From: Odiellus spinosus
Taxonomy: Eukaryota > Arthropoda > Arachnida > Opiliones > Phalangiidae
Assembly (NCBI GenBank): GCA_963920705.1
Contig: OY987239.1
Coordinates: 12,821,004-12,885,003 of the forward strand
DNA: 64,000 nucleotides
Reading direction: 5' to 3'
The notes beneath the pieces are model-generated. The model did no database searches, was not told where the DNA came from, and was given only the letters and a program-made list of their open reading frames with translations. Shown here piece by piece: positions 4,719 through 62,176 of the stretch; the stretch's first letter is position 1; each line of letters starts with the position of its first letter. The position numbers and the translations under genes were made by a program.

Positions 4719-5009
4719 CAAGAAGGATCAGATAAGGAGAGGAAATGTGGGGACGGCGCGGTTCCTACTGCGTCGGCCTAAACTCCCACTCTGGGAGAAC
4801 GGGGACAGACGGGGGTAGAGATGCTTCGTGGTAAATTGTTGTCACGTGGGTAAAACGAATCCTTTACGAGACGCGCTAGCTAGCGACCACGTGACAACAG
4901 TTTACCTCGAGAATTTCCTATCCCCCCTTTCCACCCGAGTGGGAGGTTGGCTCTTCTCTCTCTAACTCAACGCAGCCCCACATTTCCTCTCCTTATCTGA
5001 TCCTTCTTG
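4719..5009 (-). mobile_element. MITE family C, copy C1 (291 bp)
   Basis: The terminal inverted repeats are CAAGAAGGATCAGATAAGGA and its complement. It is flanked by a perfect 7-bp duplication, TCTCGGG. The core has CACGTG motifs around the palindrome GCTAGCTAGC. It is non-coding and uses the long variant with GGGGACAGACGGGGG. Confidence 0.93.
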
Positions 5010-5360
5010 TCTCGGGTAAGTTCAAGACGATAAAATAGAATAGAGACCAAGGCTTAACGAGAGAAAAAGCAAGTTTAATGATCGGGCGATTTCGTGGTGT
5101 TCTTCCTAACTGGCTTTCAAATTGTTGGGATTCTTAAACGTACTGAATTTTTAGTTAAAAACCTTTTAGCTGTACCACGAAATTTGTAGAGGGCATTGTA
5201 CCCGAGTTCGAAAACTTTGAATTACAAAAAAATAGTCTTAGAATGGTTTAACTTCTATTTTTTTTTGTTTAATAAATTGATGGCCACTTGTAAGGTATTT
5301 ATACTTTTTAAATCAACTGGTTTCCGCTAATTTAAATAGTTAATTTATTATATTATTATT

Positions 5361-6775
5361 AGGCTTAATCGATCCGTTTGAAATTAGGCTTAAAGAACGT
5401 TTGAAATTAGGCTTAAAGAACGTTTGAAATTAGGCTTAAAGAAACGTTTGAAATTAGGCTTAAAGAAACGTTTGAAATTAGGCTTAAAGAAACGTTTGAA
5501 ATTAGGCTTAAGGAACGTTTGAAATTAGGCTTAAGGTACGTTTGAAATTAGGCTTAAGGAACGTTTGAAATTAGGCTTAAGGAACGTTTGAAATTAGGCT
5601 TAAGGAACGTTTGAAATTAGGCTTAAGGAACGTTTGAAATTAGGCTTAAGGAACGTTTGAAATTAGGCTTAAGGAACGTTTGAAATTAGGCTTAAGGAAC
5701 GTTTGAAATTAGGCTTAAGGAACGTTTGAAATTAGGCTTAAGGAACGTTTGAAATTAGGCTTAAGGAACGTTTGAAATTAGGCTTAAGGAACGTTTGAAA
5801 TTAGGCTTAAGGAACGTTTGAAATTAGGCTTAAGGAACGTTTGAAATTAGGCTTAAGGAACGTTTGAAATTAGGCTTAAGGAACGTTTGAAATTAGGCTT
5901 AAGGAACGTTTGAAATTAGGCTTAAAGAACGTTTGAAATTAGACTTCAAGAACGTTTGAAATTAGGCTTAAAGAACGTTTGAAATTAGGCTTAAAGAACG
6001 TTTGAAATTAGGCTTAAGGAACGTTTGAAATTAGGCTTAAGGAACGTTTGAAATTAGGCTTAAGGAACGTTTGAAATTAGGCTTAAGGAACGTTTGAAAT
6101 TAGGCTTAAGGAACGTTTGAAATTAGGCTTAAAGAACGTTTGAAATTAGACTTAAGGAACGTTTGAAATTAGGCTTAAAGAACGTTTGAAATTAGACTTC
6201 AAGAACGTTTGAAATTAGGCTTAAAGAACGTTTGAAATTAGGCTTAAAGAACGTTTGAAATTAGGCTTAAGGAACGTTTGAAATTAGGCTTAAGGAACGT
6301 TTGAAATTAGGCTTAAGGAACGTTTGAAATTAGGCTTAAGGAACGTTTGAAATTAGGCTTAAGGAACGTTTGAAATTAGGCTTAAGGAACGTTTGAAATT
6401 AGGCTTAAGGAACGTTTGAAATTAGGCTTAAGGAACGTTTGAAATTAGGCTTAAGGAACGTTTAAAATTAGGCTTAAGAAACGTTTGAAATTAGGCTTAA
6501 GGAACGTTTGAAATTAGGCTTAAGGAACGTTTGAAATTAGGCTTAAGGAACGTTTGAAATTAGGCTTAAGGAACGTTTGAAATTAGGCTTAAGGAACGTT
6601 TGAAATTAGGCTTAAAGAACGTTTGAAATTAGGCTTAAAGAACGTTTGAAATTAGGCTTAAGGAACGTTTAAAATTAGGCTTAAGGAACGTTTAAAATTA
6701 GGCTTAAGGAACGTTTAAAATTAGGCTTAAGGAACGTTTAAAATTAGGCTTAAGAAACGTTTGAAATTAGACATA
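5361..6775 (+). repeat. Minisatellite, 23-bp unit GAAATTAGGCTTAAGGAACGTTT (split here as 20+3)
   Basis: About 60 head-to-tail copies of a 23-bp unit reading GAAATTAGGCTTAAGGAACG then TTT. Units of 22-24 bp occur at the left edge. Variants GGAACG, AGAACG and TTCAAGAACG occur in blocks, and a block with TTCAAG recurs about 245 bp apart. That indicates amplification of multi-unit segments. Confidence 0.95.
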
Positions 6776-7463
6776 ATCGACATTTCAAATGTGCAATGAA
6801 GTTTAGCGTATCAATTTTGTCGTGTACAATTCAGCGTTTCCCACAGACAGACAGACAGACGTACCCAGAGATTTATCTATTTTAAATAGGCCCTCGAAAA
6901 ACCTTAATTAATCGTCAACACGATGATTGCGTCGGAATTTCGAACTAACAGGAAAACGGAAAAGATAATCAGCTGGGAGTCAAAATTGAAACGAGCCACT
7001 AGGACAAAAAAAATTTCCTATAGATTTATTATAATTTAATTCAGTCAGGAAGATGAAATTTTACCGGGGAAATCATATTATTTAGAACCGGAAATCCGTC
7101 TCCTGCTATGGAATTTATCCTTTGTTCGAAGCTCAAACACTTAATAAGCCTAGTTGTTGTTTCAGTTTGTTTGTATCATAAGTTAAGAAGCGTTCTCAAT
7201 CAAGACTGTGTCGTTACTTTTTGGCCCAAAGAAGAAATCTTGTTTGAAAACGTATCTATAATAAAATGGATCATATGCAAATAAATAAATAAATGTAATA
7301 TAGGTTTGTTTCCGCTATAGACTAACTATGAATTTATATTATTATAATATCACCCCAGTTAATTTGAAAACCATATTTGGGTCTATGGGGAAATAGTGAA
7401 AATAAATATTCTTATACTTTATGTGTTTGTATGGAAATTCATGTTTAAGGGTTAATATTGAAT
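6776..7463. other. Intergenic DNA between two satellites
   Basis: Contains a short (CAGA)n run near 6845 and AT-rich unique sequence. No gene was seen. Confidence 0.5.
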
Positions 7464-8798
7464 GTTTAAATTTTGGCGCGAAAGTTTATTAAATTTTGGC
7501 GCGAATGTTTATTAAATTTCGGCGCGAATCTTTATTAAATTTTGGCGCGAATCTTTATTAAATTTTGGCGCGAAAGATTATTAAATTTTGGCGCGAAAGT
7601 TTATTAAATTTTGGCGCGAAAGTTTATTAAATTTTGGCGCGAAAGTTTATTAAATTTTGGCGCGAAAGTTTATTAAATTTTGGCGCGAAACTTTATTAAA
7701 TTTTGGCGCGAAACTTTATTAAATTTTGGCGCGAAACTTTATTAAATTTTGGCGCGAAACTTTATTAAATTTTGGCGCGAAACTTTATTAAATTTTGGCG
7801 CGAAACTTTAAATTTTGGCGCGAAACTTTAAATTTTGGCGCGAAACTTTAAATTTTGGCGCGAAACTTTAAATTTTGGCGCGAAACTTTAAATTTTGGCG
7901 CGAAACTTTAAATTTTGGCGCGAAACTTTATTAAATTTTGGCGCGAAACTTTATTAAATTTTGGCGCGAAACTTTATTAAATTTTGGCGCGAAACTTTAT
8001 TAAATTTTGGCGCGAAACTTTATTAAATTTTGGCGCGAAACTGTATTAAATTTTGGCGCGAAACTGTATTAAATTTTGGCGCGAAACTTTATTAAATTTT
8101 GGCGCGAAACTTTATTAAATTTTGGCGCGAAAGTTTATTAAATTTTGGCGCGAATGTTTATTAAATTTTGGCGCGAATGTTTATTAAATTTTGGCGCGAA
8201 AGTTTATTAAATTTTGGCGCGAAAGTTTATTAAATTTTGGCGCGAAAGTTTATTAAATTTTGGCGCGAAAGTTTATTAAATTTTGGCGCGAAACTTTATT
8301 AAATTTTGGCGCGAAACTTTATTAAATTTTGGCGCGAAACTTTATTAAATTTTGGCGCGAAACTTTATTAAATTTTGGCGCGAAAGTTTATTAAATTTTG
8401 GCGCGAAAGTTTATTAAATTTTGGCGCGAAAGTTTATTAAATTTTGGCGCGAAAGTTTATTAAATTTTGGCGCGAAAGTTTATTAAATTTTGGCGCGAAA
8501 GTTTATTAAATTTTGGCGCGAAAGTTTATTAAATTTTGGCGCGAAAGTTTATTAAATTTTGGCGCGAAAGTTTATTAAATTTTGGCGCGAAAGTTTATTA
8601 AACTTTGGCGCGAAAGTTTAAAGATTGGCGCGAAAGTTTAAAGATTAACGCGAAAGTTTAAAGATTGGCGCGAAAGTTTAAAGATTGGCGCGAAAGTTTA
8701 AAGATTGGCGCGAAAGTTTAAAGATTGGCGCGAAAGTTTAAAGATTAACGCGAAAGTTTAAAGATTGGCGCGAAAGTTTAAAGATTGGCGCGAAATTT
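7464..8798 (+). repeat. Minisatellite with E2F-type site in each unit (23/20-bp unit)
   Basis: About 60 copies. The main unit is 23 bp, TTAAATTTTGGCGCGAAACT plus TTA. A 20-bp version lacking one TTA step fills 7800-7930, and a 20-bp derivative with AAGATTGGCGCGAAAG fills about 8610-8795. Roughly 50 units carry TTTTGGCGCGAAA, a perfect dyad match to the E2F/DP consensus. Confidence 0.95.
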
Positions 8799-11312: not shown

Positions 11313-11593
11313 CAAGAAGGATCAGATAAGGAGAGGAAATGTGGGGCTGCGTTGAGTTAGAGAGAGAAGAGCCAACCTCCCACTCGGGTGGAAAGGGGGG
11401 ATAGGAAATTCTCGAGGTAAACTGTTGTCACGTGGTCGCTAGCTAGCGCGTCTCGTAAAGGATTCGTTTTACCCACGTGACAACATTTTACCACGAAACG
11501 TCTCTACCCCCGTTCTCCCAGAGTGGGAGTTTAGGCCGACGCAGTAGGAACCGCGCCGTCCCCATATTTCCTCTCCTTATCTGATCCTTCTTG
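11313..11593 (+). mobile_element. MITE family C, copy C2 (281 bp)
   Basis: Complete, with perfect 7-bp duplication CTGTAGC on both sides. It is the short variant. Copy B2 begins only about 11 bp downstream. Confidence 0.93.
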
Positions 11594-11604
11594 CTGTAGC
11601 TTCT

Positions 11605-12631: not shown

Positions 12632-12969
12632 CAGAAGCCGATGAAACCTTCCTTTGAAGTCTATTACTCCCGGGTCTTGTCAACCCCTCTCTGTATGGGT
12701 TAGTTTCAAAAATCGCGATTCGTACGCCTCCTAACGGTAGATATTTTCGGAGCGGGAGTTCGTCCACCGAATATCTCTAGCAGCCTCGGAGTTCGTCAAA
12801 AAAACGTCGTCGTTTGCGGAGAGAGAGAATTTCCAATTTTCCGTAGACAGGGGGGTATGAAGTAGGACCCCTCCGATCTCGTAAAATTGTGAATTTTACC
12901 CATACAGAGAGGAGCGCTATATGGAACATTAGAGTAGTAGACTTCAAAGGAGGGTTTCATCGGCTTCTG
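12632..12969 (+). mobile_element. MITE family A, copy A1 (338 bp)
   Basis: Starts CAGAAGCCGATGAAAC and ends with its complement. Subterminal CCTCTCTGTATGGGT is inverted at the other end. It is the only plus-oriented copy with no clear 7-bp duplication, so it may be older or a recombinant. Confidence 0.92.
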
Positions 12970-13481: not shown

Positions 13482-13820
13482 CAGAAGCCGATGAAACCCT
13501 CCTTTGAAGTCTATTACTCCCGGGGGTCTTGTCTACCCCTCTCTGTATGGGTTAGTTTCAAAAAGCGCGATTCGTACGCCTCCTAACGGTAGATATTTTC
13601 GGAGCGGGAGTTCGTCGAGCGAATATCTCTAGCAGCCTCGGAGTTCGTCAAAAAAACGTCGTCGTTTGTGGAGAGAGAGAATTTCCAATTTTTCGTAGAC
13701 AGGGGGGATGAAGTAGGACCCCTTCTAACTAGTAAAATTGTGAATTTTACCCATACAGAGAGGAGCGCTATATCGAACATTAGAGTAGTAGACTTCAAAG
13801 GAGGGTTTCATCGGCTTCTG
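13482..13820 (+). mobile_element. MITE family A, copy A2
   Basis: Full length, with perfect 7-bp duplication ATTTTGT. It combines the AGTTTCAAAAAGCG left type with the TTCTAACT right type, a rare mosaic. Confidence 0.94.
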
Positions 13821-14199: not shown

Positions 14200-17100
14200 A
14201 TGATTGGCCTCATTCCCGAATTGAGATGGCCAACAATCGTGATGGCCGTCATCGCCTTACTTAGTCCATCATCCAATGGTAAGTCAAACCTTTTATTTAT
14301 ATGATTATAGTTTTGAACGATGCTAGGGGGGGTCGTTGTTTACTTACATGGAATAAGGTCATAGACTTATGATACTTTAAATCGTCCTAAATCTAAGTTA
14401 TATTTCAATATCTTGGTAAAGAAAAACGTGAATTTGAATCAGACGCGTCCTTTGTTAGGCACTTGACCTTTCCAATATGGAAGAGTTGTTTTTCCCGTTT
14501 CTTAACTCTGCTTTCCAAAATTACCATACATGGCACACGTAATCGCCAGATTACTTCTATGCTAATTCAATGTTTTTAAAACTTTTTTTTAATATTAAAG
14601 AGTTTTTTGAAATTTGAATTTTCTTGAAATAAAAAATGATTTATATATCGAATACTCGGTTTCTAAAAAACGGGTAATCGAAAAGTCGTCCTGAAAACCT
14701 AGCTTTATTGGGGGTTAATAACTTTAATTAAATTTTGATTTATTATTTATTGAGGCTTTGAAATTAATTAATTAATAGAAAACTATAATTAATTTTAATT
14801 AATTTCAGGATTACCATCACTTCATGGTACGCCAGTTGACCCAGTCTCAGCCAAAGCGGGGGAGGAGGCCATTATAATTTGCGAAGCAAAAAACACCGAA
14901 AATTATACAGTATTAACCTTTGACCCCAATTTAAAGGGATAATGCAACCTAACATTTTTTTTTAAAGGTTATCTGGCAAAGATTAACGTCTAGCGTTTTA
15001 ACCTCAGAGATTCTAACAGCTGGCACTGTCAGAATTACGAGCGATCGTCGATTTACTGTGATACACGAGAAAGGTAATTATTTTTCTCATTTAAATTAAT
15101 TAATTTCGTGGCTTCGTCTAATTAAGGTATACCTTTTATTTTTATAGATAGTGATATATGGGCGTTAAGAATTAACCCAGTCAATGAATTGGACGGTGGA
15201 CGTTACATATGTGAAGTTAACAGTATACCAAGACTACACGTTGTACGCGTTTTAACAGGTTAAAGTTCATACGTTTCGACAAGTACCAATTGAAAACCCT
15301 CTTGAAAAGGCGTCTGTTTATTTATTTGCCCAGTTTTGTGAAAACCATTCGTTTAACCACGCACATTAATAGGCTTTAATAATTAGCAAAATCTTTGCAA
15401 AAACATTGAAAACGTGGCATTAGGGGTCTTCAATTGGTTCTAGTTTCAGTTTCAGTTTAAACCTATTAACTAATATTTAATTATAATCCACATAGTTCAA
15501 GCCAATAACGAATCTAGTCATTATTATTCGTCAAAAACTGATAACACTGGTAAATTATTAATTCCGTATAAGCAGAGGTATATAATAACCCCCTTCGTGG
15601 GGAAGTATGAAAGCCCCTATACTACCAATGCTAAAAATCTCGAACAACAAGAGCCCGCTGCTGACTATCTAGGCCACTAGCTCGCGCTGGACTTCTCAAT
15701 GTCGCTACTCTAGTAAATGGTCTTTGTATAAACAAGACGGCTCGATTTGCGTTTAGAACTTCCTGTCACGGGAGTCAGGCTGTCCGTTAAAATGGAGTCG
15801 AAGGTTGACTTCGGCTCGCGAGTTCCGGAAGCGCGCGTAGGGAAAATTTAGTCAGGTTCAAAATGGTGTAACTATTTTTTTGGGAGTAAAGCGGCGTGTC
15901 GATCCGCCGCGATTTACGCCGGGCACTCGTTGTTCGTCGATTTTGCCTACCTTTCATACTTCCCCCCGAAGGGGGTTATTATATACCTCTGGTATAAGTG
16001 TTAAGTGATTTTAAAGAGTTTACTAATCCATAGGATGTTGTATGCAAGCCAACGTACCCATCGACTGCTTACAGTTCTGTAGCTTAAACACAATATTATC
16101 AAGATCTCACCCTAATCCGTGGCATTGTATGGAACATTTACCCACCATTACAAGATGTCTTACGGGTAAGATTATATTATAATATTGAAATGGATTTTTT
16201 CCGCTAAATTTTACCCATTATTGAATACGATCTAGCTGTCTGACTTAGAGAGTGGTTATTAACTTATGGTTGTAATAATAGATGGTCGTAATCATTTGCC
16301 TTGTTGCGAGAGACAAAATATTCCGGAAGTGTGCCGTTCCGTTTGTGTCGGTGATTATGATTTGTCGACCGTCATTCAGCATTATTCATGCATGAACTAT
16401 ACTATACCAACCCTGGCCTGTATTGCCGAGGGAGTTGGTGAGTTATTTTTATCTTTTAAACTATATTTTTTAAAGGTATGATGAAGTACATCCATACAAA
16501 CGTGTGACGTCAGTTTTACTTTATATTTCAATACGCTCTAAAGAAATCGACTTACACCAAGAAGGATTAGATAAGGAGAGGAAAAGTGGGAACGGCGCGG
16601 CTCCTACTGCGTCGGCCTAAACTCCCACTCTGGGAGAACGGGGGTAGAGACGTTTCGTGGTAAAATGTTGTCGCGTGGGTAAAACGAATCCTTTATGAGA
16701 CGCGCTAGCTAGCGACCACGTGACAAGAGTTTACCTCGAGAATTTCCTATCCCCCCTTTTCACCCGAGTGGGAGGTTGGCTCTTCTCTCTCTAACTCAAC
16801 GCAGCCCCACTTTTCCTCTCCTTATCTGATCCTTCTTGCTTACACGATCATAAACCAAAAATGGTTCCAAATTCGACCAAGTAAACCAAATGAAATAAAA
16901 AATTTATATATTTTTGGTCGAATTATTTTGGGATTTTATAATTGGAAACTTTTTGGATCAAAATAGATTTTTTTCAGTCATTGGGAAAGCCGATATCTTC
17001 GATAATTCTATGATATCGTATTGAAATTAAAATATTTTGCGATTAATTAGTGCTATAACATAATTATCAAAATCAAACTAACTTTAATTAATTATTTTTA

Positions 17101-20100
17101 GATTCAAATTGTACTCTAACAATGAATTGTTCATTATCTAAATTTTTTAATCTTTCAAAACAGAAATCCTTCCTGGTCCGCCTCAAGAATTAGTAGTTCA
17201 ACCCATTTCCTCCAACGAACTCGAAGTCTCTTGGTCACCCCCTTCCCAATCAGTTCCAGTTGACAATTACATCATTAACGTCACAAAAATACACGCTTTA
17301 AGCCCCGGTGCCCAGTTTGAGGTCAGTTCAGCGACGCGTACCGAATCAACCGGTTTTTTAATATCTCCAATATTCAAATTTGACGTTTTTCTTTTTAGGT
17401 AGTGGATAACAGACGCGGCAAAGAACTTAATTACCAAGACAAGAATATAAGCATCGTCGAAACGGTAAGGTAATTAAACGAACTAATTCTAAATTAATTT
17501 AATTCATTAATTTTAATTAACAGGTGTCTAGCAATCAAACTCGTCACGTCTTAAAAGATTTGGAGCCGGAAACAGTTTACGAAATTCATTTAACATCTAA
17601 AAACGATCAAGGACACAGTCTTCCAACCTACGCCGTTCGAACTATGACCTTACCAAAGAACTTTTCCAATATAACCCCTGAACCAGATTCCCTTGTCGTT
17701 AATCTAACCGTACCTGATATCAAAAAATGTTGCGTCGAAAAAGGGGTTAAAATGGGACGGTGTTTGGATAACATGTGTGATCTAACCAAAGCTGATCATA
17801 TTCGGTAAAAATTTAAACCAGAAGCCGATGAAACCCTCCTTTGAAGTCTATTACTCCCTGGTCTTGTCTACCCCTCTCTGTATGGGTTATTCTCAAAAGG
17901 CGCGATTCGTACGCCTTCTAACGGTAGATGTTTTCGGAGCGGGAGTTCGTCCACCGAATATCTCTAGCAGCCTCGGAGTTCGTCAAAAAAACGTCGTCGT
18001 TTGTGGAGAGAGAGAATTTCCAATTTTCCGTAGACAGGGGGGTATGAAGTAGGACCCCTTCTAACTCGTAAAATTGTGAATTTTACCCATACAGAGAGGA
18101 GCGCTATATCGAACATTGGTGTAGTAGACTTCAAAGGAGGGTTTCATCGGCTTCTGTTTAAACTTAAACTCAACCATGCTACCTTACTATCAGCTAAATA
18201 AAATCACTGGTCATTTTTAGATTGACTGACGTCATGATTTGCGCTCCATGGGCAAATGTTACGTTCGAATGCATGTCCGGTGATGTTGACCACACACCGT
18301 GTTGCAAAACCAGAAACGTTCCTGATGTCTGTTTAGATTTCTGTCGAGGCAAAGTGACTAGGGTTGATTACAGACACTTTGTATGTTTGGATCATATGGA
18401 ATCGTACGGAAACTGTCTCTTGGAACATTATGGAGTTCTTCCAACTCAACCACGTGATTACACTGTTAGACTGATACATTCAGAATGGGCTTTGTTACAT
18501 TGGAAAGAACCAGCGTAAGTTACAAAGATAATATCTCACTAGTATTAGAATATTAAAGTCATTTAAATCGTGTATTGTCGTTCGTTTAGAACTTTGGGTG
18601 AAACTGTAACTGGTTACAACATTCATTGGAGAGAAATTGAAGACCAGGAAGGTGAATATCACGCTGTATTTGGTGTCAAATCCCCGTATCTACTAGATGG
18701 CCTGATTCCTGGAGTCCAGTGAGTCATTTACCATCGTTTAAATCTATTTTTTACTTGGAAGTTAATTTGATTGTAAATATTTAAGATATGAAAGCTACGT
18801 TGTCGCTACCAACAAATATGGTACCAGTAAACACTCGACGCAAGTTGTTTTCACGACATCAACAATCGTCAAAACGTCCGACAATGATAGACAAAATCGT
18901 TGGTATAATGAAACGGCTTGTTGCGTTTCTGCTGGACTTCAAGACGATTGCCTACCATTATGTTCTTACGACGTAAGTTGTTGTTTACTTTTATGGATAA
19001 AGTCATAGACTTTTGATCATATTTTACGGAAACATTTATTCTAGGTGAAATTGACCGATATGTACAGCTTGGGTCCAAGATGCGTTCATCAACTGGACAT
19101 TCTAATAAGATGCGCAGCGGCCGGAAGGGACCATACCCCTTGTTGCAAACGACGTAGTGTTAATTGGGATTGTATGCCTATGTGTGCGGGTTCTTTATCA
19201 ACTAATCAATTTAACTTGGCGCAAACGTGTAGTCAAGATATTGGGAACATCTTACAGGTAATAAACAAGACACTGGACACTATAACTAACACAGGGTTGC
19301 CACAGTTTTTTCAGATTCAAATTCCCTGACTTTTTCGGGTTTGTCCCTGACTTTTTCGGGTTTTTCCCTAACTTTCTCGGGTTTTTCCCCGACTTTCTCG
19401 GGTTTTTCCCCGACTTTCTCGGGTTTTTCCCCGACTTTTTCGGGTTTTTCCCCGACTTTTTCGGGTTTTTCCCCGACTTTTTCGGGTTTTTCCCCGACTT
19501 TTTCGGGTTTTTCCCCGACTTTTTCGGGTTTTTCCCCGACTTTTTCGGGTTTTTCCCCGACTTTTTCGGGTTTTTCCCCGACTTTTTCGGGTTTTTCCCC
19601 GACTTTTTCGGGTTTTTCCCCGATTTTTTCGGGTTTTTCCCCGATTTTTTCGGGTTTTTCCCCGACTTTTTCGGGTTTTTCCCTGACTTTTTCGGGTTTT
19701 TCCCTGACTTTTTCGGGTTTTTCCCTGACTTTTTCGGGTTTTTCCCTGACTTTTTCGGGTTTTTCCCTGACTTTTTCCAACGATTTTTCCTGACCGTTTC
19801 AACTAATACTACCCAATTTTGAAGCTTTTATTGTTTTATATAATCGCGTTCGCCAAACTGCAGGCGTATCTTTGTTGTAATCTATACAACTGACACGCCG
19901 TCAGCTGAGAATCTTTTCCACGGATAATGATTGTAATTTCCTGGCTTCCTTAAAAGATCTTTAAATTCCCTGACTTTTTAAAATATCTTTAAATTCCCTG
20001 ACTTTTTAAAATATCTTTAAATTCCCTGACTTTTTAAAATATCTTTAAATTCCCTGACTTTTTAAAATATCTTTAAATTCCCTGACTTTTTAAAATATCT

Positions 20101-27562: not shown

Positions 27563-32880
<5,318 letters not shown>

Positions 32881-44800: not shown

Positions 44801-47800
44801 TAAATGGACTTATGATAACACGCTTTCAAAGACGGGGGACAAGGTCGCGCGTGCGCTGTAGGAAGCCGTCAAGGACGCGGATGCGTGTAGGAAGGCGTCA
44901 AGGACGCGCGTGCATGTAGGAAGCTATCAAGGTCGCGAGCTCCAGGGAAAGGGGAACATCCAAATAGTTTACGATTTCGACGCGCATGCGCGATAAAAGA
45001 AGCCGCCGCCACCTGGGCTAGTATTTCCCACCCATTCCGACAATGAAAAAATGCCTCAGCCAATGGAAGGAGAGTATAAGGAATTTTCTATCACGTGAGA
45101 AGTCGCCGCTCGTAATAGGAATGCGGAAGTCTATCTCCCTCCCACGCATTCCGACAGTGAAAAATACAACAGCCAATGAAAGGAGAGTATAGTATTTAGG
45201 AGGGGGATTATTACGTAAAAAGTAGGCCTAGCGTTTTTTTTTATTTTTGGTCTAAAAAATGGCTGCGTCATTTTTAAAATTCAGGCTTATGGTGGTGGTG
45301 TGAAATTCTGTCCGCTTTTTAATAAAATAACCGAGCAAACTCGGTCCAATTTAGGTAAACCTTTATTATAAATTGAACTGGCTTTTAAATTATTGATTGT
45401 CAACCGTGAATGATATTAGAGCTCGCAAATTCGCCAATTATAATTAGTTATTTTGAAGTTAATTAACTTTAAACTCGACGTTATTTCGAGTGGACGGAAT
45501 TAGCCTCTATGGGTAGTTTTTTTTTTTCTAATCTTCGATAATTAATTAAATATGACGTCAAGATGAGACCGGAAACGCGTATTTTGTAGTTAAAGTCTAA
45601 TTACTTTTAGTTACGTTTACTGGGGAGAGTACCCGCTATCCTTCGCGGCTTGCCTCAACCAAGAAGAATGCTTTAGATTGCTGTTAGCCAAAGGTGCCGA
45701 TCCAGATAAACAAGACACTAACGGCAATTCAGTTGCTCACATTATGGTCATCAAGGACAACATGGTACGATATAACGTCACAAGTACTTGTCAACATACT
45801 TGGCAATTAAAAATCTAATCTTAATTTTAAGAATATGTTCGACCAAGTTTACGAATTGGGCGCAACGACACATATTTATAATCGACAAGGGTTGACACCA
45901 TTGACAATGGCAGCCAAATTGGCAAGACACGACGTATGAATACAATTACTGCATTAATATGAGGTGGTCACCATTTTTCACTAACTCCAGAAGCCGATGA
46001 AACCCTCCTTTGAAGTGTACTACTCTAATGTTCGATATAGCGCTCCTCTCTGTATGGGTAAAATTCCCAATTTTACGAGATCGGAGGGGTCCTACTTCAT
46101 ACCCCCCTGTCTACGGAAAATTGGAAATTCTCTCTCTCCACAAACGACGACGTTTTTTTGACAAACTCCGAGGCTGCTAGAGATATTCGTTCGACGAACT
46201 CCCGCTTCGAAAATATCTACCGTTAGGAGGCGTACGAATCGCGCTTTTTTGAAACTAACCCGTACAGAGAGGGGTAGACAAGACCAGGGAGTAATAGACT
46301 TCAAAGGAGGGTTTCATCGGCTTCTGCTAACTCCAAATAACGTCATCATTATAAGGTCACGTGTTTCGATATTGTTAGAGAATACAATTCTCGTCCGTAA
46401 TTATGGCAACAGAATGATAAGGTAGCTTTCGCGGCGTCTTTCTCGTGAAAGTACTTGAATCAAAATGGTGACAGCTTCACTTAATTCATATTCATAATTT
46501 CACATGATGCCTCTATTATTAGCTTTTCATGCATATTTTTAAACTTCAACGTGAAATTTACTGGCAATTAGGCAACATTACATGCGCCGCCTATCCTTTA
46601 GAAGAGATTGACACCATTAATGCAGAAACTGGCGAAATATTTAAAGAATCAGCTCTAAATCTGGTGGTGTACGGAGTAAGTACCTTAATTATTTAATGTC
46701 CAAGTGTTTCGTAACGTTACAAGTACTTTCAAGGAACGCGCTGGACATTTGGACATGATGGAAGGATTATTGGTTGATTTGTTAAACGCTAAATGGAATA
46801 CTTTCATCAAATTTAAGTAGGTATTTAGTGAAACCATCCTCGTTCAATTTTAAGCCTAAAGGATTTGTCTGGAAGTTGCCATCATTTGAATAGTCCTGGT
46901 CGATTTGCCGGAAATGGGCCCTTGTCTCATAGCCGCGCCGCCATCTTTTTGTAGTAACAGGTTGCCAGACTATTTCTAATTTTATTTCCCACAAACCAAA
47001 TTCAAGTTGTTAGTCCAACGCTTCCTATATGATAAAGTATAGGAGGCGTTGGTTAGTCCGTAGCTATTTTCACACTACAAAAAGATGGCGGACGATCACG
47101 TGACAAAAAGGTTTCCCCGCCAAAATTTTCGTGAGGTTCTCTAGACTTCCGGTTTTGGAAATCGACCAGGACTATTAGGTTTTGAAATTATGTGTTTGGA
47201 TACCGTCTCAATCCTACGTCTAAAATGTAAATTTAATCCTTGACCTACAACAGATTCTACATAAAATTTCTCGTCTTCGCTATCTATTTCGTCATGTCAA
47301 TTGGTTGCTTCATTTTGAGACCAGCTCCACTCATTAAAACTAAATCTGTTATTAAACCTCAAAAGAACGTCATCAACACAACATCGGCACCAACTATGGC
47401 TTATATCTCAACCACAACTGAACTTTCCAATAATTCTAACGAGGGTTTAACCACCGAAATCAACACTTTGAAAATAATTCAAGCTCTTTCACCATTTTCA
47501 ATTGACGCGTCCAAATTACCTGAAGAATGCTACCTCTTGGTTTACGATACACCCAAAGACAAGGTACATTATAGTTACAAACACTAATTAATATAAATTT
47601 TAAATTATCATAAATTAACCTATTATTATTGAATATTCAGTCTTGCTAAGATTTCCCGTATATCACTACATTATTATCGCCCCTAATAGCTAATTAATAA
47701 CTAGAACTGTTTTACTATTAATTAATAAGATAATATTGTAATTACAGACCTGATAGTTTAGCCACAAACGTTGCTTCCAAAAGTTCCAGACCTAAGCCTT

Positions 47801-49890
47801 GGTTTCACTTCATATCTCACTGTTTTTTACGTTTCTTATAAGAGTCACAACACTTACACTTATTTCTAATATAGATTAATGAAAAACCTATCAATTAGTG
47901 AAATTAATACTAATTAAACACTAAAATTACTTTAAAATAACACGGGATAAAGAATAAATTAATTTATCGCGATAGCGAACAAAATCTTGCACGACCCGCG
48001 TTTACCGGCGAAACTGTTGTTTTAAGCAGACGACATTGGAGGCTCGATTTAAATTCTTGGAGGGTGTTAATTTTCTAAGAATTCTACCTAAGTTGGAATA
48101 TTCTTACTTTGAAATATTTTGTTAGTCATATTTGCCGCAGAGAAATTAATAAAAATAAACTATTTTTTCATTAGGTACGCTTTGTTTTCGAGATTCTAGC
48201 AGCAGCGGGAGCTTTCTTATACATCGTTCAAGCCTTGAACGAACTAAAATTCATGGGAAAAAACACCTTTTTCGAAAATTTGGTAAATTTCAACAACCAT
48301 TACATCATATCTCGTAACCCTATAATTAAGAATTACTTAAATCTTACATATTTAATCATGTATTTTAGTCTACGGTACCATCACGCGTTCTTTTCTTGAT
48401 ATCATGCATAGTGTTAGTCATTATCATGATACCACTTAGAATAACATGTCAATGTCAACTTGAAGATAACATGGCCGTTTTGGTTATGTTATTAACAGCG
48501 CCACATTTCCTTTTCTTCTGCCGGTAAGTTTGTCTTACAATTTAACCACGCAATTAGTACAATACTTTCTAATTTGAATTGGACAGAGGTTTTAAGATGG
48601 TGGGTCCATTCGTGGTCATGATCTACAAAATGGTTCAAACCGATTTACTCTGTTTCGTCTGTATTTATCTTGTTTTTGTTATGGGGTTTTCTCAAGGTAA
48701 TTAAACAGCCTGGACAATTGGCCTGGTACTAGCTTACTTATCTACTGATAAGGGAAGTGTTCGTGGAACGTGTGGCCAAGTACTGTCACCTAGAAATGTG
48801 TCTAACGTATCATCTTTGTTTAACAGCGTATTTCGTGATTCACCAATCACACGACAATAAAAATAAAACGTCTAGAAACTTCTTCGAAACACCTGTTGAG
48901 AGTTTCATGGCCTTGTTTGTCATGTCTGTGGGAACCTTTGGCGAAATTTACCAACAATTTGATAACACAGATCATCCTTACATCGCAAAAGTAAGTTTTA
49001 AGGACGAATGGTATTGTAAAACTTTGTCCCAGCCTTGAAACAAGTTATTTTGTTGGTTCCAAGGGTCCTTAGTAGTTACAGAAGTAGATGAAACCCTCAT
49101 TTGAAGTCTATTACTCCCTGGTCTTGTCTACCCCTCTCTGTATGGGTTATTCTCAAAAAGCGCGATTCGTACGCCTCCTAACGGTAGATATTTTCGGAGC
49201 GGGAGTTCGTCCACCGAATATCTCTAGCAGCCTCGGAGTTCGTCCAAAAACGTCGTCGTTTGTGGAGAGAGAGAATTTCTAATTTTGCGTAGACAGGGGG
49301 GATGAAGTAGGACCCCTTCTAACTCGTAAAATTGGGAATTTTACCCATACAGAGAGGAGCGCTATATGGAACATTGGAGTAGTAGACTTCAAAGGAGGGT
49401 TTCATCGGCTTCTGGTAGTTAATTTAAACACATTTTGTTCTTTCAGGTACTATTTTTCGTGTACGCCACTCTCGTGGCTACTTTACTGATCAACATGTTG
49501 ATCGCTATGATGGGAAAAACGTACCAAGACATCGCCGAGAGGAAAAACGAATGGATGAGGCAATGGGCCCGAATTGTGATGGTTGTTGAAAGAGGGGTTT
49601 CTCCTAAAGAATGTCTTGATAACATGATTCGTTACTCCGAACCAATGGCTGGAGGAAGACGCGGATTGGTTATAAGACATCAATACGTGGTAAATTAATT
49701 TAATCTATTTATCTATAAAAATAAACGCGTAACTAACCCTTGAAATTAAAATTATATTTTTCAGGGTGCAGAAAAAGAGGAATTAGAAGAATTGATGGAT
49801 CTAAAATTATGCCACATCGAAAATCGTAAAAAGAGAAAATCAGTCGCCGAAGCGAAAGCGAAAGAAAATAATTCTGTTAATCGCGATTAA
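41812..49890 (+). CDS. nan: TRPV cation channel, Nanchung-like (15 exons, 814 aa)
   Basis: Membrane channel. In insects Nanchung works with Inactive in chordotonal mechanosensory neurons. Exons: 41812-41964, 43092-43308, 43584-43760, 44463-44652, 45611-45764, 45832-45933, 46523-46675, 46734-46816, 47254-47563, 48175-48282, 48369-48523, 48587-48696, 48827-48990, 49447-49689, 49765-49890. All phases agree. The N-terminus MGNTES fits an N-myristoylation signal. Ankyrin repeats span about 135-380 ([43 protein letters not shown]). S1 is 410-430, followed by a long threonine-rich outer loop (431-513). S2 is 514-534, S3 553-574, S4 581-603 and S5 621-643. The pore segment SVGTFGEI is at about 671-678 and S6 at 693-715. 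A basic tail ends it. Exon 4 uses donor GG|GTTTGT. Introns hold a satellite and MITEs B3, A8, B4 and A9. The family length is about 830 aa. Nanchung rather than Inactive is chosen for length and ankyrin sequence. Confidence 0.9.
41990..43073 (+). repeat. Minisatellite, 20-bp unit TAATTTATAGACGCCATAAT
   Basis: About 53 copies filling intron 1 of the TRPV gene. Variants GACACCC, TTGACGCAA and CCCCAAT recur in mixed order. Confidence 0.95.
43822..44110 (+). mobile_element. MITE family B, copy B3 (289 bp)
   Basis: Ends AATAGTCCTGGTCGATTTG and AAATCGACCAGGACTATT. Inverted internal arms carry GCCGCCATCTT and AAGATGGCGG. The centre forms a hairpin, CAACGCTTCCTAT with ATAGGAGGCGTTG. In intron 3 of the TRPV gene. 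Confidence 0.92.
44843..44945 (+). repeat. GC-rich minisatellite, about 30-bp unit, 3-4 copies
   Basis: Unit approximately ACGCGCGTGCATGTAGGAAG plus CTGTCAAGG, in intron 4 of the TRPV gene. Confidence 0.8.
45029..45215 (+). repeat. Direct duplication, about 107-bp spacing
   Basis: CATTCCGACAATGAAAAA and CAGCCAATGGAAGGAGAGTA recur as CATTCCGACAGTGAAAAA and CAGCCAATGAAAGGAGAGTA downstream. Confidence 0.7.
45988..46326 (-). mobile_element. MITE family A, copy A8
   Basis: Perfect 7-bp duplication CTAACTC. In intron 6 of the TRPV gene. Confidence 0.95.
46353..46462 (+). mobile_element. Element E fragment
   Basis: GGTCACGTGTTTCG, GAATACAATTCTCGTCCGTA, GATAAGGTAGCTTTCGCG, matching positions 940-1045. 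Intron 6 of the TRPV gene. Confidence 0.55.
46889..47176 (+). mobile_element. MITE family B, copy B4 (288 bp)
   Basis: Nearly identical to B3, including the central hairpin. In intron 8 of the TRPV gene. Confidence 0.93.
49079..49414 (+). mobile_element. MITE family A, copy A9
   Basis: Perfect 7-bp duplication GTAGTTA. Left end CAGAAGTAGATG, right end CATCGGCTTCTG: the two ends are of different types. In intron 13 of the TRPV gene. Confidence 0.94.
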
Positions 49891-50129: not shown

Positions 50130-50590
50130 AATCTTCTTAAATAACATCAAACCTCAGGCATAATCCTTCTAATAAACATCAATTTCAAGGCATAACCCTC
50201 CTAATACCAGAAGTAGATGAAACCCTCCTTTGAAGTCTATTACTCCCGGGTCTTGTCTACCCCTCTCTGTATGGGTTAGTTTCAAAAAGCGCGATTCGTA
50301 CGCCTCCTAACGGTAGATATTTTCGGAGCGGGAGTTCGTCGAGCGAATATCTCTAGCAGCCTCGGAGTTCGTCAAAAAAACGTCGTCGTTTGTGGAGAGA
50401 GAGAATTTCCAATTTTCCGTAGACAGGGGGGTATGAAGTAGGACCCCTCCGATCTCGTAAAATTGGGAATTTGACCCATACAGAGAGGAGCGCTATATCG
50501 AACATTAGAGTAGTAGACTTCAAAGGAGGGTTTCATCTACTTCTGCTAATACACATCAAACTCTAAGCATAATCCTCCAAATAAACATAC
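50130..50590 (+). repeat. About 32-bp minisatellite split by MITE A10
   Basis: Units AATAACATCAAACCTCAGGC and ATAATCCTTCT, then AATAAACATCAATTTCAAGG and CATAACCCTCCT. The series continues after the MITE with ACACATCAAACTCTAAGC, ATAATCCTCC. Confidence 0.7.
50208..50545 (+). mobile_element. MITE family A, copy A10
   Basis: Perfect 7-bp duplication CTAATAC. Both ends are of the rare TAGATG type (CAGAAGTAGATG and CATCTACTTCTG). It abuts the proposed last codon of esterase copy 1. Confidence 0.95.
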
Positions 50591-52670: not shown

Positions 52671-53007
52671 CAGAAGCCGATGAAACCCTCCTTTGAAGTC
52701 TATTACTCCCGGGTCTCGTCTACCCCTCTCTGTATGGGTTATTCTCAAAAGGCGCGATTCGTACGCCTCCTAAAGGTAGATGTTTTCGGAGCGGGAGTTC
52801 GTCGAGCGAATATCTCTAGCAGCCTCGGAGTTCGTCAAAAAAACGTCGTCGTTTGTGGAGAGAGAGAATTTCCAATTTTCCGTAGACAGGGGGGATGAAG
52901 TAGGACCCCTTCTAACTCGTAAAATTGGGAATTTTACCCATACAGAGAGGAGCGCTATATGGAACATTGGAGTAGTAGACTTCAAAGGAGGGTTTCATCG
53001 GCTTCTG
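52671..53007 (+). mobile_element. MITE family A, copy A11
   Basis: Perfect 7-bp duplication ACATTAA. It lies 127 bp upstream of the esterase copy 1 start codon, so within or near its promoter. Confidence 0.95.
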
Positions 53008-53703: not shown

Positions 53704-54041
53704 CAGAAGCCGATGAAACCCTCCTTTGAAGTCTACTACTCCAATGTTCCATATAGCGCTCCTCTCTGTATGGGTAAAATTCCCAATTTTACGAGATCGG
53801 AGGGGTCCTACTTCATACCCCCCTGTCTACGGAAAATTGGAAATTCTCTCTCTCCACAAACGACGACGTTTTTTTGACGAACTCCGAGGCTGCTAGAGAT
53901 ATTAGCTCGACGAACTCCCGCTCCGAAAATATCTACCGTTAGGAGGCGTACGAATCGCGCTTTTTGAAACTAACCCATACAGAGAGGGGTAGACAAGACC
54001 CGGGAGGAATAGACTTCAAAGGAGGGTTTCATCGGCTTCTG
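53704..54041 (-). mobile_element. MITE family A, copy A12
   Basis: Perfect 7-bp duplication GTATAAT. Confidence 0.95.
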
Positions 54042-54393: not shown

Positions 54394-54731
54394 CAGAAGC
54401 CGATGAAACCCTCCTTTGAAGTCTACTACTCCAATGTTCCATATAGCGCTCCTCTCTGTATGGGTAAAATTCCCAATTTTACGAGTTAGAAGGGGTCCTA
54501 CTTCATTCCCCCCTGTCTACGGAAAATTGTAAATTCTCTCTCTCCACAAACGACGACGTTTTTTTGACGAACTCCGAGGCTGCTAGAGATATTCGCTTGA
54601 CGAACTCCCGCTCCGAAAATATCTACCGTTAGGAGGCGTACGAATCGCGCCTTTTGAGAATAACCCATACAGAGAGGGGTAGACAAGACCCGGGAGTAAT
54701 AGACTTCAAAGGAGGGTTTCATCGGCTTCTG
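54394..54731 (-). mobile_element. MITE family A, copy A13
   Basis: Full length. Flanks GCCAAGT and GTTAGGT do not match, so it may be a recombinant or an older copy. Confidence 0.93.
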
Positions 54732-55001: not shown

Positions 55002-58000
55002 TTAGCATTTGTTCTTTGCCATGAATTCTGTTAACAATCATTATAAAAATGATTTAGTTTAATGAAGGTATATTAATTAAAATTAACATTAAAATAAATT
55101 ACCTCCTTGTTGTCTAACTTTTCTATACGAGTTCTTGAAGTAAGAACATTGTTCGGCTCTCAAAAAATGGCCCACTTTTTGGCCAACTTTTAAATTCAAA
55201 TAAGCTTTTTTACGTAACGAATATTTCGGCAAATGTTTGCCATCTTCTTCAGTCTCGTCGTTATCGTGATCAGCTTTGTCTCTAACACATTTAATTAGAG
55301 ATTATTAAACTTAATTAACAATATTATCTTAATCAAAAAGGATTAGAAATTAAACGGAATTAAAATTGGTTTTGATCATGCTTAAATTGCATGATCAAAC
55401 TTAAACATAATTGGCACGTTCACAGCTAGGTTAGCTTGCCTCGATCATGTTCAGAGATAAGGCGTAATGATTATAAAATCCAGAAGTAGATGAAACCCTC
55501 CTTTGAAGTCTACTACTCTAATGTTCGATATAGCGCTCCTCTCTGTATGGGTAAAATTCACAATTTTACGAGATCGGAGGGGTCCTACTTCATAACCCCC
55601 TGTCTACGCAAAATTGGAAATTCTCTCTCTCCACAAACGACGACGTTTTTTTAACGAACTCCGAGGCTGCTAGAGATATTCGCTCGACGAACTCCCGCTC
55701 CGAAAATATCTACCGTTAGGAGGCGTACGAATCGCGCTTTTTGAAACTAACCCATACAGAGAGGGGTAGACAAGACCCGGGAGTAATAGACTTCAAAGGA
55801 GGGTTTCATCGGCTTCTGTTATAACCAATGTAAGTCGTAATGATCACGATGAGTGTTAGGCAGGCTTAATGATCATGACAATGTCAATTATCTCGGATAA
55901 TAGGCAGAAATATGTTTAGCGTGACAACAGCTAGGCTTAGCCACTTGGGTACCACTACAGCTCATTAACCTTTGACCCTTTATTCTAAATAATACCTATG
56001 GGTTGTAAGCGAGCATTCATACAACTTACTCTTGTTTAACAAATCTAGCCAACATATCCATGAGGGTAAAACCATGGTCCTGTTCCAAATCCTTGTAACG
56101 TTTTCCCTCCTGGTTGGTGTGTCCAAAAAAGTAGTTGATTTCTTCACCATTTAGATTACCGGCAAATTCTGGATATGAATCGTCGATATGATGGTCCAAG
56201 TAGAAAACAAATACTTTATTGCCGGAGTAAAGCAATTCGTCCGCGAAATTCAACAAGGGACACGCCACCGTGATATCATTTACAAAGTTTAAAGAATTTT
56301 CTCTGATAGAATCTGGATCGTCTGGATCCTAAAATGGTATGGAAGCTAATCTTACTCTTGGAAACACGAAAATCATAGATAAATCAGTGATATTTACAGT
56401 TATGTTTGTGTAGAAAACTAAGACGGCATTGGTGGAATACTCGGAGTTATCATTAAGTAGCGTGTGAATAAGGTTTTTAAAATCACCGACGGTTATGTGT
56501 GAATCTTCCGTGGGTCTGAGTGGTGATAAGGCGAAATTAAGAATACTAGCCCGATTATGACTGATTCCGATCAGGGCTCTGATTGTTGGATCAAAACGGC
56601 CTTGTTGGGCCAAAACTCTGGGATTTTCGGTGAAGAAATGACCATCGTTGACCGGTAAGAAACGTTTATGTTTACGACTGACCATAGTGCTTGTAGCTTT
56701 ATTCAGTTCCTCAGCTGTTTTGGCTCTAAGACATTCCAAACCTTCCGCGCCGTGTCCGCAACCTTCAGGAAGGTCAATGATTTATCAAAAATCTATGATT
56801 TTATTCTTCCATAAAAGCAGAAGCCGATGAAACCCTCCTTTGAAGTCTACTACTCCAATGTTCGATATAGCGCTCCTCTCTGTATGGGTAAAATTCCCAA
56901 TTTTACGAGTTAGAAGGGGTCCTACTTCATGCCCCCCTGTCTACGGAAAATTGGAAATTCTCTCTCTCCACAAACGACGACGTTTTTTTGACGAACTCCA
57001 AGGCTGCAAGAGATATTCGCTCGACGAACTCCAGCTCCGAAAACATCTACCGTTAGGAGGCGTACGAATCGCGCCTTTTGAGAATAACCCATACAGAGAG
57101 GGGTAGACAAGACCCGGGAGTAATAGACTTCAAAGGAGGGTTTCATTGGCTTCTGATAAAAGTAAACATCGCCCCATAGTTTAAAACTATCATCAAAGGT
57201 TCCCCTACAGATTTGTTTCATAGCCCATCACTTAAAAATAGCGAAAAAAATCATCACCCCTGTCTGCCTCGAGTGATTTGGACTCTTCAGCTCGATTTTT
57301 GAGATACGGAAGAATTAGGCGGGCCGCGCTTGGCTACGGTTTACATTTATGGATAGACATAAAAATGTTTCTTAGTATACTAACCAAGGCTATCAGCGAG
57401 AGTGTTGGCGATATTTTCAGCCTCTTCTTTGGATTTTACAGCCATGTATGTGGTAGGCGATCCATTTAACAAAACAATTTGTTGGAATAAACAAGTACAT
57501 GTATGGGAAAGCATCAAAGCTCCAGCAGAAATGGCGCCTGTTCCTTCCCCCATAAGAGTGACCTTCTTAGGATTACCACCGAAGTCCGAAATATATTTCT
57601 GTACGAATTTTAACGCCGTACGTATGTCTTGAAGTCCCATATTACCAGGGGCTTCGTCGTTACCAAGATGAAGGAATCCAAAAGCGCCTAATCGAAAGTT
57701 TAAGGTGACGACGATAATGTCCTCTTCGGCAACAAGTTCCCGGCCATCGTATTTCTCAGAACTTGAAGAATCGTATATGAATCCACCCTCGTGAATGAAG
57801 ACCAAGACGGAAGCGTTGTTTGATTTAGGATATTGGGCGTAGATGTTTAGATACAAACAGTCTTCTGATTGGCTTTCGAACGTAGTGACTGGTGGGACAA
57901 AATGGTCCAAGTTATCCTCGTATTTTTCGATACCTGCTTGGATACAGGCTGGTGGTAATTTGTGGGCCTTGAGTGGACCATCTAGATGACCTATTGGAAC

Positions 58001-58974: not shown

Positions 58975-59014
58975 CAAGGAGGATCAGAGAAGGAGAGGAA
59001 ATGTGGGAACAAGA
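58975..59014. mobile_element. MITE family C, solitary end (C10)
   Basis: CAAGGAGGATCAGAGAAGGA then GAGGAAATGTGGGAAC match a C terminus, after which similarity stops. Probably a deletion remnant. Confidence 0.8.
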
Positions 59015-59748: not shown

Positions 59749-61412
59749 ATGGCCGATCTCTTAGTGAGAATAAAAATTGAAAACACTTCGGACGAAGCCC
59801 GCGCTGAGGTGAAAGTAGAGCCGGTGGAGGAGCAAGTCGCGACGAGTGGAGCCGGGAGCGCGGTTGTGCCTGAAGTGGCCGAGGAGCCGGAGGGAGCGGG
59901 CCCCCAAAAGAAAGGTAATTTTTCTAAGAACGTCCCGGCTCTTTCGAAAGAACTTCCGCCAAGTTCTTTTAGACTCGGCATTGGGTTAATTGACGCGATG
60001 GGTATTTACTAATGGACGTGATAAATCTCTTTCGAGAGTACTCCGGAAATGGGTTGGAAGGGTATCTTCATCACGAAGGAGAATGGTCTATTTTTGCCGA
60101 AATCTTCGCGAGAATATCGCGAATCGATTCGCGGTTATATAGGATTTTAACCATAAAGTATAGACACGTGACTCGATTCGGCCAATAGCCTGGTCAAATT
60201 ATTCTCGCGCCAAGTTCGCCAATATAATCGCGAGAGATTCCGCGCGAGGCTGTTTTTACCTTCTCTTGGGAGTGACGTCGGTTTTACTTTTCAACGCGCT
60301 GAATAACGAGACAGATCGGAGTCCCAATGAGGAAAAAAACCTTCTACGCTCAAAAATGATCCAAATTGAAAAATTCCCGCGATTGCTTAAAAGAAAACAA
60401 AAATCCGCCAGTTTCGCGATTGGGACAAATTTACGCGTATCGCGTAACTTTAACAAGTTTTACTTTTTTTATATTTCAGTAGTGAAGAAACGGGTGAAGA
60501 AACGTTGGGGAGCAAAAGGCTTCAGGCCGAACCCCCGAAAATTCCCACCAAGGGTGGTTCTAGTAAACCGAGGAGATGGCAGTAAGTTAAAAGAAATTAT
60601 CTTCATCTTAAGCTACAAAACACTAATATTTAATCAAGGAGGATCAGATAAGGAGAGGAAATGTGGGGCTGCGTTGAGTTAGAGAGAGAAGAGCCAACCT
60701 CCCACTCGGGTGGAAAGGGGGGATAGGAAATTCTCGAGGTAAACTGTTGTCACGTGGTCGCTAGCTAGCGCGTCTCATAAAGGATTCGTTTTACCCACGC
60801 GACAACAATTTACCACGAAACGTCTCTACCCCCGTTCTCCCAGAGTGGGAGTTTAGGCCGACGCAGTAGGAACCGCGCCGTCCCCACATTTCATCTCCTT
60901 CTCTGATCCTCCTTGATTTAATCTCGCTTTATTTTTTTAGTTTGCGCGGGCCCGTGTGCCAAACCGGGCAATTTAGATCGCAAGCTGCACGGCCTGAAAC
61001 TTTGCCATCCGTGTTTAAAAAAAGTAAATTAAATAGAACCAATAACCAATTAGCTCGTGTAATAATGATTTGGTTTCACGACGTTAAGACTTAAAGGGAG
61101 ACTGAAGGAAAAATCTAATGCTATATTTTGTTGATAAAACAGTAAAGAAAGTCCCTTCCTCTCCAAAATTATGGTTTAAAATCAGCGTTTTAGCCCCCCC
61201 CCCTTCCTGACTTAGTTATCGCGTATTACGTACGATTTCCTTCAGTAGTCCTTCCCCAAAATTTGATTTCATCGTGAAACGTCATTGCCAAGTTACGATT
61301 GAAAGTCGCGTTGCTATTTTTAACCATAGGGGTATTGATAAAGAATTTCATATTTCTATTACAGTACGACAGCTACAAAAAGTCGCAAAAAAAGAAAAGA
61401 AAAGTGTGGTGA
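59749..61412 (+). CDS. Unrecognised small basic protein with a CxxxC...CxxC motif (4 coding exons, 132 aa)
   Basis: I do not recognise the family. Exons: 59749-59914, 60480-60581, 60941-61023, 61365-61412. Phases 1, 1, 0 agree, and each intron has standard ends. Residues 1-56 are acidic and Ala/Glu/Pro-rich (EVKVEPVEEQ). Residues 56-89 are strongly basic (VKKRVKKRWGAKG). At 91-114 Cys91, Cys95, Cys111 and Cys114 could bind one zinc (C-x3-C-x15-C-x2-C). The end is a lysine run, KKSQKKKRKVW, that looks like a nuclear localisation signal. A nuclear, nucleic-acid-linked role is inferred only from composition. Exon 1 is notably GC-rich relative to the flanks. MITE C8 lies in intron 2. AATAAA at 61452-61457 follows the stop. 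Confidence 0.68.
60635..60915 (+). mobile_element. MITE family C, copy C8 (281 bp)
   Basis: Perfect 7-bp duplication ATTTAAT. In intron 2 of the small gene, 25 bp before the exon 3 acceptor. Confidence 0.94.
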
Positions 61413-61451: not shown

Positions 61452-61457
61452 AATAAA
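61452..61457 (+). terminator. Polyadenylation signal AATAAA of the small gene
   Basis: 40 bp after the stop codon. Confidence 0.5.
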
Positions 61458-61593
61458 TTATAATTAAAATAAATTTTAGCGTTTATATTATTTATTCGGA
61501 GTTTTAATTTATCATTCTACCGCGTAATTCGATAATCACGTGACCCTCAAAATTGTTTTTCTTTTTAAATAAAATTCCGTTTGCCAGCGCGTT

Positions 61594-61894
61594 AAAGGGA
61601 GACTGAAGGAAATTGCGCGTAATTTCCTATTAACTTAGGCAGCTTAAGGTCTATAGCGAATTCCTTGATACGCGGGAATAATGATTTCCCATCACGATAA
61701 AACTAAACCTTGCCCGTAATTTGATTTCGCTATGTTTATGGGCTGAAACAGTTCCACTTGGACTGCATTTTTAATTTGTTTTAAAGGGAAGTGCATTAGT
61801 GATATTTTTAACCAATAGGGATATTGATAAAGAATTCAAATTTATATTACAGTACGAAGCCTTAACCCTCGTCAAATCTGTCACGTACGTTTAG
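61594..61894 (+). pseudogene. Duplicated last intron and terminal exon of the small gene
   Basis: AAAGGGAGACTGAAGGAAA (61594) repeats 61094, and the stretch up to TATTACAG|TACGA (61853) repeats the exon 4 acceptor at 61365. The duplicate exon reads YEALTLVKSVTYV then stop (61853-61894), so it has lost the lysine run. It is either a decayed copy or an alternative last exon. Confidence 0.6.
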
Positions 61895-61895
61895 A

Positions 61896-62176
61896 CAAGG
61901 AGGATTAGACAAGGAGAGGAAAAGTGGGGCTGCGTTGAGTTAGAGAGAGAAGAGCCAACCTCCCACTCGGGTGGAAAGGGGGGATAGGAAATTCTCGAGG
62001 TAAACTGTTGTCACGTGGTCGCTAGCTAGCGCGTCTCATAAAGGATTCGTTTTCCCCACGTGACAACAATTTACCACGAAACGTCTCTACCCCCGTTCTC
62101 CCAGAGTGGGAGTTTAGGCCGACGCAGTAGGAACCGCGCCGTCCCCACATTTCTTCTCCTTGTCTAATCCTCCTTG
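61896..62176 (+). mobile_element. MITE family C, copy C9 (281 bp)
   Basis: Perfect 7-bp duplication GTTTAGA. Both ends are the GAGGATTAGACAAGG type, as in C5. A paralogous empty site lies near 59250. Confidence 0.95.

Follow-up and report, generated by a model that had tools for sequence, protein, structure and literature searches.

Which enzyme moves a set of short repeats that carry no gene of their own and mostly leave the same 7-bp footprint? The question is raised by a 64,000-nt stretch of the genome of the opilionid Odiellus spinosus (assembly GCA_963920705.1, contig OY987239.1, positions 12,821,004 to 12,885,003), the whole of which we refer to as the window. BLAST of the window against itself, and of one copy per family, located 26 full copies of three families of miniature inverted-repeat transposable elements (MITEs), which amount to 8,479 bases or 13% of the window: 15 copies of family A (336-340 bp), 9 of family C (281-292 bp, in two length forms of 281 and 291-292 bp) and 2 of family D (419 bp), plus one isolated C end. 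A previous, sequence-only reading of this DNA had attributed all three families to a single transposase encoded elsewhere, and had named P and Dada as superfamilies with duplications of about 7 bp. Here we find a strict 7-bp target duplication and a palindromic target preference, which together suggest enzymes from the P/hAT group.

Seven-base duplications around three families

We read the ends and flanks of all 26 copies. Families A and D start with CAG and family C with CAA, each with the complement at the other end, and the best match between the interiors of any two families is 10 bp (E 0.2), so that no relationship between them is detectable. An exact 7-bp direct repeat stands immediately outside 21 of the 26 copies (A 11/15, C 8/9, D 2/2), and an 8-bp repeat outside none. 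On these points the sequence-only reading was accurate: it had described three families with CA(G/A) starts, complementary ends and different interiors, had counted 21 perfect repeats, a number that the re-reading of all flanks returned exactly, and had noted that the eighth base does not match in the copies it checked base by base. One of the 21, the C copy at 60635, additionally matches at 2 bp, and an 8-bp repeat that includes the terminal base is not the rule (C after the right repeat in 4/21, G before the left repeat in 1/21). The five other copies match at one to five of the seven positions (see the table).

Could these repeats be coincidental, or belong to the elements themselves? The window is A-T rich and holds many tandem arrays, and random positions at element-like spacing do match in 0.47% of cases (936/200,000). 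However, the left flank of one copy paired with the right flank of another gave no exact match in 650 combinations (2/650 with at most one mismatch), against 21/26 for the true pairs; the 21 repeats are 21 different 7-mers; and empty-site relatives carry the 7-mer or its remnant once. The controls thus refute chance or artefact as the explanation.

We also scanned the window without regard to family, for inverted ends of 12 bp (one mismatch allowed) that lie 60-4000 bp apart and are flanked by an exact direct repeat of k bases. For k=7 this returned 22 matches, namely 20 copies of A, C and D and two others (33832-33922 and 43950-47051); the A copy at 49079 fails the limit on the ends and was missed. 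The first of the two others spans 91 bp within a GTTTTTC repeat and has inverted ends that resemble GGGCCAAAATAG. For other repeat lengths the scan gave 24 (k=5, a count only), 54 (k=6), 23 (k=8), 1 (k=9) and 2 (k=10) matches. Those listed at k=6, 8, 9 and 10 are units of tandem arrays, a hairpin, matches that pair one copy of another repeat with a second copy, short repeats of palindromic or low-complexity sequence that lie within repeat copies or between them and, at k=6, a 455-bp element.

Next, for every one of the 26 copies, we fused the left and right flanks around a single repeat and searched the window for the corresponding empty site. Matches were obtained across the junction for six copies, and the remaining 20 gave none. 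The joined flanks of the C copy at 28098, which lies in a tandem array, are identical to 28630-28748 (119/119 bases). An empty-site relative of the C copy at 61896 is found at 59223-59316 (88% over 94 bases), and two A copies have inverted relatives, the one at 30000 at 10508-10571 (78%, with a single TGTTTAC) and the one at 13482 at 13226-13287 (84%, with an imperfect junction). The A copy at 50208 matched its own imperfect 32-bp tandem flank, which aligned only as far as the junction, and was not counted; the A copy at 56818 matched dispersed repeats at 71-83%. Because empty-site relatives are present in the window, one of them at 119/119 bases, the copies of A, C and D are real insertions. 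As a separate observation, the A copies at 30000-30337 and 56818-57155 apparently inserted into two copies of one older dispersed repeat, at points that differ by only a few bases; relatives of that repeat lie near 10508-10571 and 14302-14374.

The terminal inverted repeats (TIRs) measure 34-72 bp across the families: about 70 bp with gaps in A and 41 bp with one mismatch in D, while C is a hairpin over almost the entire element with 34 strong terminal bases. The consensus ends are CAGAAGCCGAT for A, CAAGAAGGATC for C and CAGAGGTATAT for D. No consensus has a long open reading frame (ORF), the longest stop-free stretch being 77 amino acids. With 26 short copies, TIRs, duplications around 21 of them and no transposase gene, the data support the description of A, C and D as MITEs with a strict 7-bp duplication, a size that is less usual and already known. 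Copies diverge from their majority consensus by 1.8-4.1% in A and 1.4-3.6% in C, and the two D copies differ from each other by 3.1%. With moderate confidence, this divergence suggests that the A and C copies are young; the earlier view that most of them are recent holds to that extent, but at 1.4-4.1% from consensus they would not be fresh. Seven of the 15 A copies lie within 8.2 kb, a borderline clustering (p 0.053); local hopping of A was considered and rejected, as distance and divergence are unlinked (Mantel r 0.04, p 0.31).

A palindromic target preference

The 21 duplicated sites, oriented by their elements, share a palindromic core, nTnnnAn, a preference that is new in this analysis. 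T occupies position 2 in 15/21 sites and A position 6 in 18/21, and both occur together in 13/21, compared with 10.5% of window positions with the same spacing (p 2e-8). G at position 1 and C at position 7 are weaker (8/21 each). The core recurs in each family, T2 and A6 being found in 8 and 9 of 11 sites of A, 5 and 7 of 8 of C, and 2 and 2 of 2 of D. When the two halves of the sites are folded on each other and read by offset from the centre, the favoured bases are T at offset 2 (33/42, p 9e-10), G at offset 3 (16/42, p 0.0015), T at offset 1 (p 0.027) and T at offset 6 (25/42, p 0.0003), these p values being uncorrected for 44 looks.

Published targets offer several models. PMC3276498 gives 7 bp and GTTNAAC for the element 1360, 8 bp and GTCCGGAC for P, and 8 bp and GTNCGNAC (earlier NTNNNNAN) for hobo, and PMC4168063 gives 7-bp duplications and GTANTAC for Galileo. 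Our sites match GTTNAAC at 3.29 of 6 positions on average and GTANTAC at 3.05 of 6, against 1.64 for window 7-mers in both cases, and the plain NTNNNAN core at 1.57 of 2 against a background of 0.64; none of 20,000 resamples reached any of the three scores. This comparison was made after the sites had been seen, with motifs that themselves come from papers on other elements. The core of the target is certain, and the choice among the published motifs is not.

Candidate transposases

Taken together, these results are best explained, with a probability of about 0.75 that applies to the P/hAT group as a whole, by transposases of P or hAT type that make a 7-bp stagger and mobilised the MITEs in trans. 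We infer the class of enzyme from its footprint alone, that is, from the duplication length and the target. The group is likely because a palindrome whose second base is T and whose second-last base is A is seen in both superfamilies and because hATs with 7-bp duplications exist; CA...TG ends with long TIRs and the lack of a long ORF in the consensuses also count for this reading. Since the elements carry no gene, a transposase made elsewhere would bind the inverted ends of A, C and D and excise the elements. Given a 7-bp duplication, it would then join them to the two target strands at positions offset by 7 bp, and repair of the gaps would yield the duplication. Its target would be a short palindrome, roughly GTTNAAC, in which T2 and A6 are strongest.

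Within the group we slightly prefer the P superfamily, in a 1360- or Galileo-like form, on the basis of the 7-bp duplication and the palindromic GT...AC-type target, the core of which is common to hAT. P had been a candidate in the sequence-only reading, and both the length and the resemblance of the target motif to those of 1360 and Galileo favour it. The Drosophila melanogaster element 1360 shares the 7-bp duplication and the palindromic GTTNAAC target (PMC3276498), a likeness of duplication and target. Galileo, another Drosophila element of the P superfamily, has 7-bp duplications and a GTANTAC target that matches nearly as closely as that of 1360 (PMC4168063), and its long TIRs recall the near full-length hairpin of family C; it differs in that its long TIRs are composite and that some copies hold a transposase segment, as described in PMC4168063.

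Several observations weigh against the P/hAT reading or against its P form. Elements of the hAT superfamily (hobo) prefer the same core, T2 with A second from the end, and the plain NTNNNAN is likewise enriched, so the motif cannot separate P from hAT. The outer base at offset 6 is T here, as opposed to A in the ANAGT reported for the P group and in 1360. The ends of P elements follow CANRG and those of hAT elements YARNG. Both rules are satisfied by family D (CAGAG) and by three C copies that begin CAAGG (28098, 60635 and 61896), and neither by family A (CAGAA) or by the other C copies, which begin CAAGA. Furthermore, no long element that shares the ends of A, C or D came to light, and a Pfam search of parts of the window revealed no transposase domain, whether P-type (THAP, RNase H), hAT or other. 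The search took in all six frames, with stops as X, of 8741-19302, 23481-27712, 58201-62962 and about 29-42 kb, and the three plus-strand frames of 43061-50802. It also included ten ORFs spread over the window, which were the only coverage of 1-8740, 19303-23480, 27713-29000, 50803-58200, 62963-64000 and the minus strand of about 42-50.8 kb.

The strongest rival, which we regard as a real if minority prospect, is that the enzyme within the P/hAT group is a hAT with a 7-bp stagger and not a P-type transposase. The sequence-only reading had held that 7 bp is not the usual hAT size; the typical 8-bp duplication is indeed absent from all 26 copies, but the statement was too strong, as hAT7 families with 7-bp duplications are described from rust fungi, and hAT5 and hAT6 elsewhere (PMC12730594). 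One query printed in Repbase's own paper asks for hAT entries whose duplications measure 7 bp (PMC4455052), and T2 together with A second from the end is a feature of hAT targets as well (PMC3276498). The hAT7 elements of Puccinia and Melampsora, compared here by duplication length only, differ in encoding transposases (PMC12730594). The 455-bp element returned by the blind scan, a single copy at 21655-22109 whose perfect ends (CAGGGTGACCAC...GTGGTCACCCTG) are 12 bp long and whose direct repeat is TTACTA (6 bp), is a possible hAT6-type MITE and could lend a hAT some support. Against a hAT, the 7-bp GTTNAAC-like motif is nearer to that of 1360 than to the 8-bp motif of hobo, and no hAT domain was detected in the scanned parts of the window.

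We next consider whether a single transposase moves A, C and D. Duplication length and target preference are common to all three families, and the ends of A and D are weakly alike: with the shared CA held fixed, 339, 26 and 11 of 3000 shuffles aligned as well over 12, 20 and 30 bases, in a set of nine tests. The ends of C are unlike both, 1158/3000 (A versus C) and 2445/3000 (C versus D) shuffles being as good over 30 bases. Repbase joins non-autonomous families if their duplications are equally long and their 11 terminal bases differ at no more than one position (PMC4455052), and no pair of A, C and D agrees to that extent. Three related enzymes of one superfamily would look the same. The common duplication and target show only a common type of enzyme, and the proposal of one transposase for all three, with C ends that resemble neither A nor D, is unlikely and was not borne out. 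From the end alignments, A and D may share an enzyme and C may have its own. Bolder and rather improbable is the idea of one transposase, belonging to a P or hAT lineage not yet described and always staggering its joins by 7 bp, that accepts three sets of ends sharing little beyond CA...TG and the target palindrome, and whose passengers make up 13% of the window.

Elements of Dada or Kyakuja type are very improbable, although both can make 7-bp duplications (6-7 bp in Dada; PMC3706591, PMC12730594) and two named Kyakuja families have CA..TG termini (PMC12730594). PMC3706591 describes Dada as without TIRs and inserted in multicopy small RNA genes, the targets being snRNA and tRNA genes, none of which were detected in the window (ARAGORN; Rfam at gathering threshold), and PMC12730594 describes the two Kyakuja families as without TIRs. 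The TIRs of A, C and D are 34-72 bp long and their sites are dispersed, which contradicts the earlier naming of Dada as a candidate. A 7-bp duplication also flanks a 936-bp inverted-repeat element of the nematode Meloidogyne incognita, which is longer and is left unclassified in the description in PMC3169594, on which this comparison rests.

Copies, surroundings and implications

Table 1. Copies of families A, C and D in the window, with the duplicated target or the agreement of the flanks. Repeats of copies on the - strand are given as read on the + strand.
Feature	Position	Strand	Flanks
A copy	12632..12969	+	GTATTAA/GTCCTAA, 5/7 matching
A copy	13482..13820	+	ATTTTGT
A copy	17819..18156	+	TTTAAAC
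A copy	30000..30337	+	TGTTTAC
A copy	31294..31630	-	CTAGAAC
A copy	35788..36126	-	3/7 matching; only adjacent exact repeat 5 bp (AAGAT)
A copy	40733..41072	+	GTTTCAA
A copy	45988..46326	-	CTAACTC
A copy	49079..49414	+	GTAGTTA
A copy	50208..50545	+	CTAATAC
A copy	52671..53007	+	ACATTAA
A copy	53704..54041	-	GTATAAT
A copy	54394..54731	-	4/7 matching
A copy	55481..55818	-	4/7 matching; CGTAATGA common to both flanks further out
A copy	56818..57155	-	ATAAAAG
C copy	4719..5009	+	TCTCGGG
C copy	11313..11593	-	CTGTAGC
C copy	16558..16838	+	CTTACAC
C copy	25639..25930	+	GTTTAAC
C copy, within tandem array	28098..28378	-	CTTATAT
C copy	30820..31110	+	CTCTAAT
C copy without duplication	33120..33410	-	1/7 matching
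C copy	60635..60915	-	ATTTAAT
C copy	61896..62176	-	GTTTAGA
D copy	15573..15991	+	GTATAAG
D copy	40097..40515	+	GTATCAC
Isolated C-type terminus, 36 bp, 92%, remaining element absent; outside the 26	58975..59010	+	

The lone C-type end is followed by other DNA, and could be a truncated copy or a different family with C ends. A fourth inverted-repeat family of about 288 bp, with AATAGTCCTGGTCGATTT ends, is present at 43822-44110 and 46889-47176 (98%), with a relic at 11605-11852 (about 75%); there is no 7-bp repeat at the aligned ends of its two full copies. Long tandem arrays with units of 20-28 bp, mostly very uniform and in some cases built on TTAGGC-like motifs, occupy 5358-6770, 7466-8740, 19322-19777, 19935-21009, 28392-29053 and 41998-43058. 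TTAGGC itself, the telomere unit of nematodes, is present in several tandem arrays.

The Pfam matches obtained are to host domains: fn3, Ig, DB, COesterase with overlapping hydrolase models, ADH, ankyrin and weaker relatives. Two genes of the window belong to the carboxylesterase family; there are also exons with ankyrin repeats, exons of a zinc dehydrogenase and, close to DB modules (PF01682), exons of an Ig/FN3 protein. This content marks the window as animal nuclear DNA; the DB module is largely a nematode one, and from sequence content alone a nematode would have been the most likely source. For one of the two esterase ORFs the best matches among solved structures are acetylcholinesterases. 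End patterns of A, C and D had no match in a collection of viral contigs, nor those of A and C in a collection of prokaryotic contigs, results that say little, since the collections are viral and prokaryotic and may lack near relatives of this genome. Our literature searches found no paper on the three families.

What these insertions mean depends on the partner. If it is of P type, this genome would be host to a P lineage, and the 7-bp, GTTNAAC-like choice of 1360 would appear to be old and no peculiarity of flies. If it is a hAT, the range of 7-bp hATs would widen past the fungi whose elements received the name hAT7. The target palindrome drawn from the 21 sites is, in itself, a usable marker for sorting MITEs that have no known transposase.

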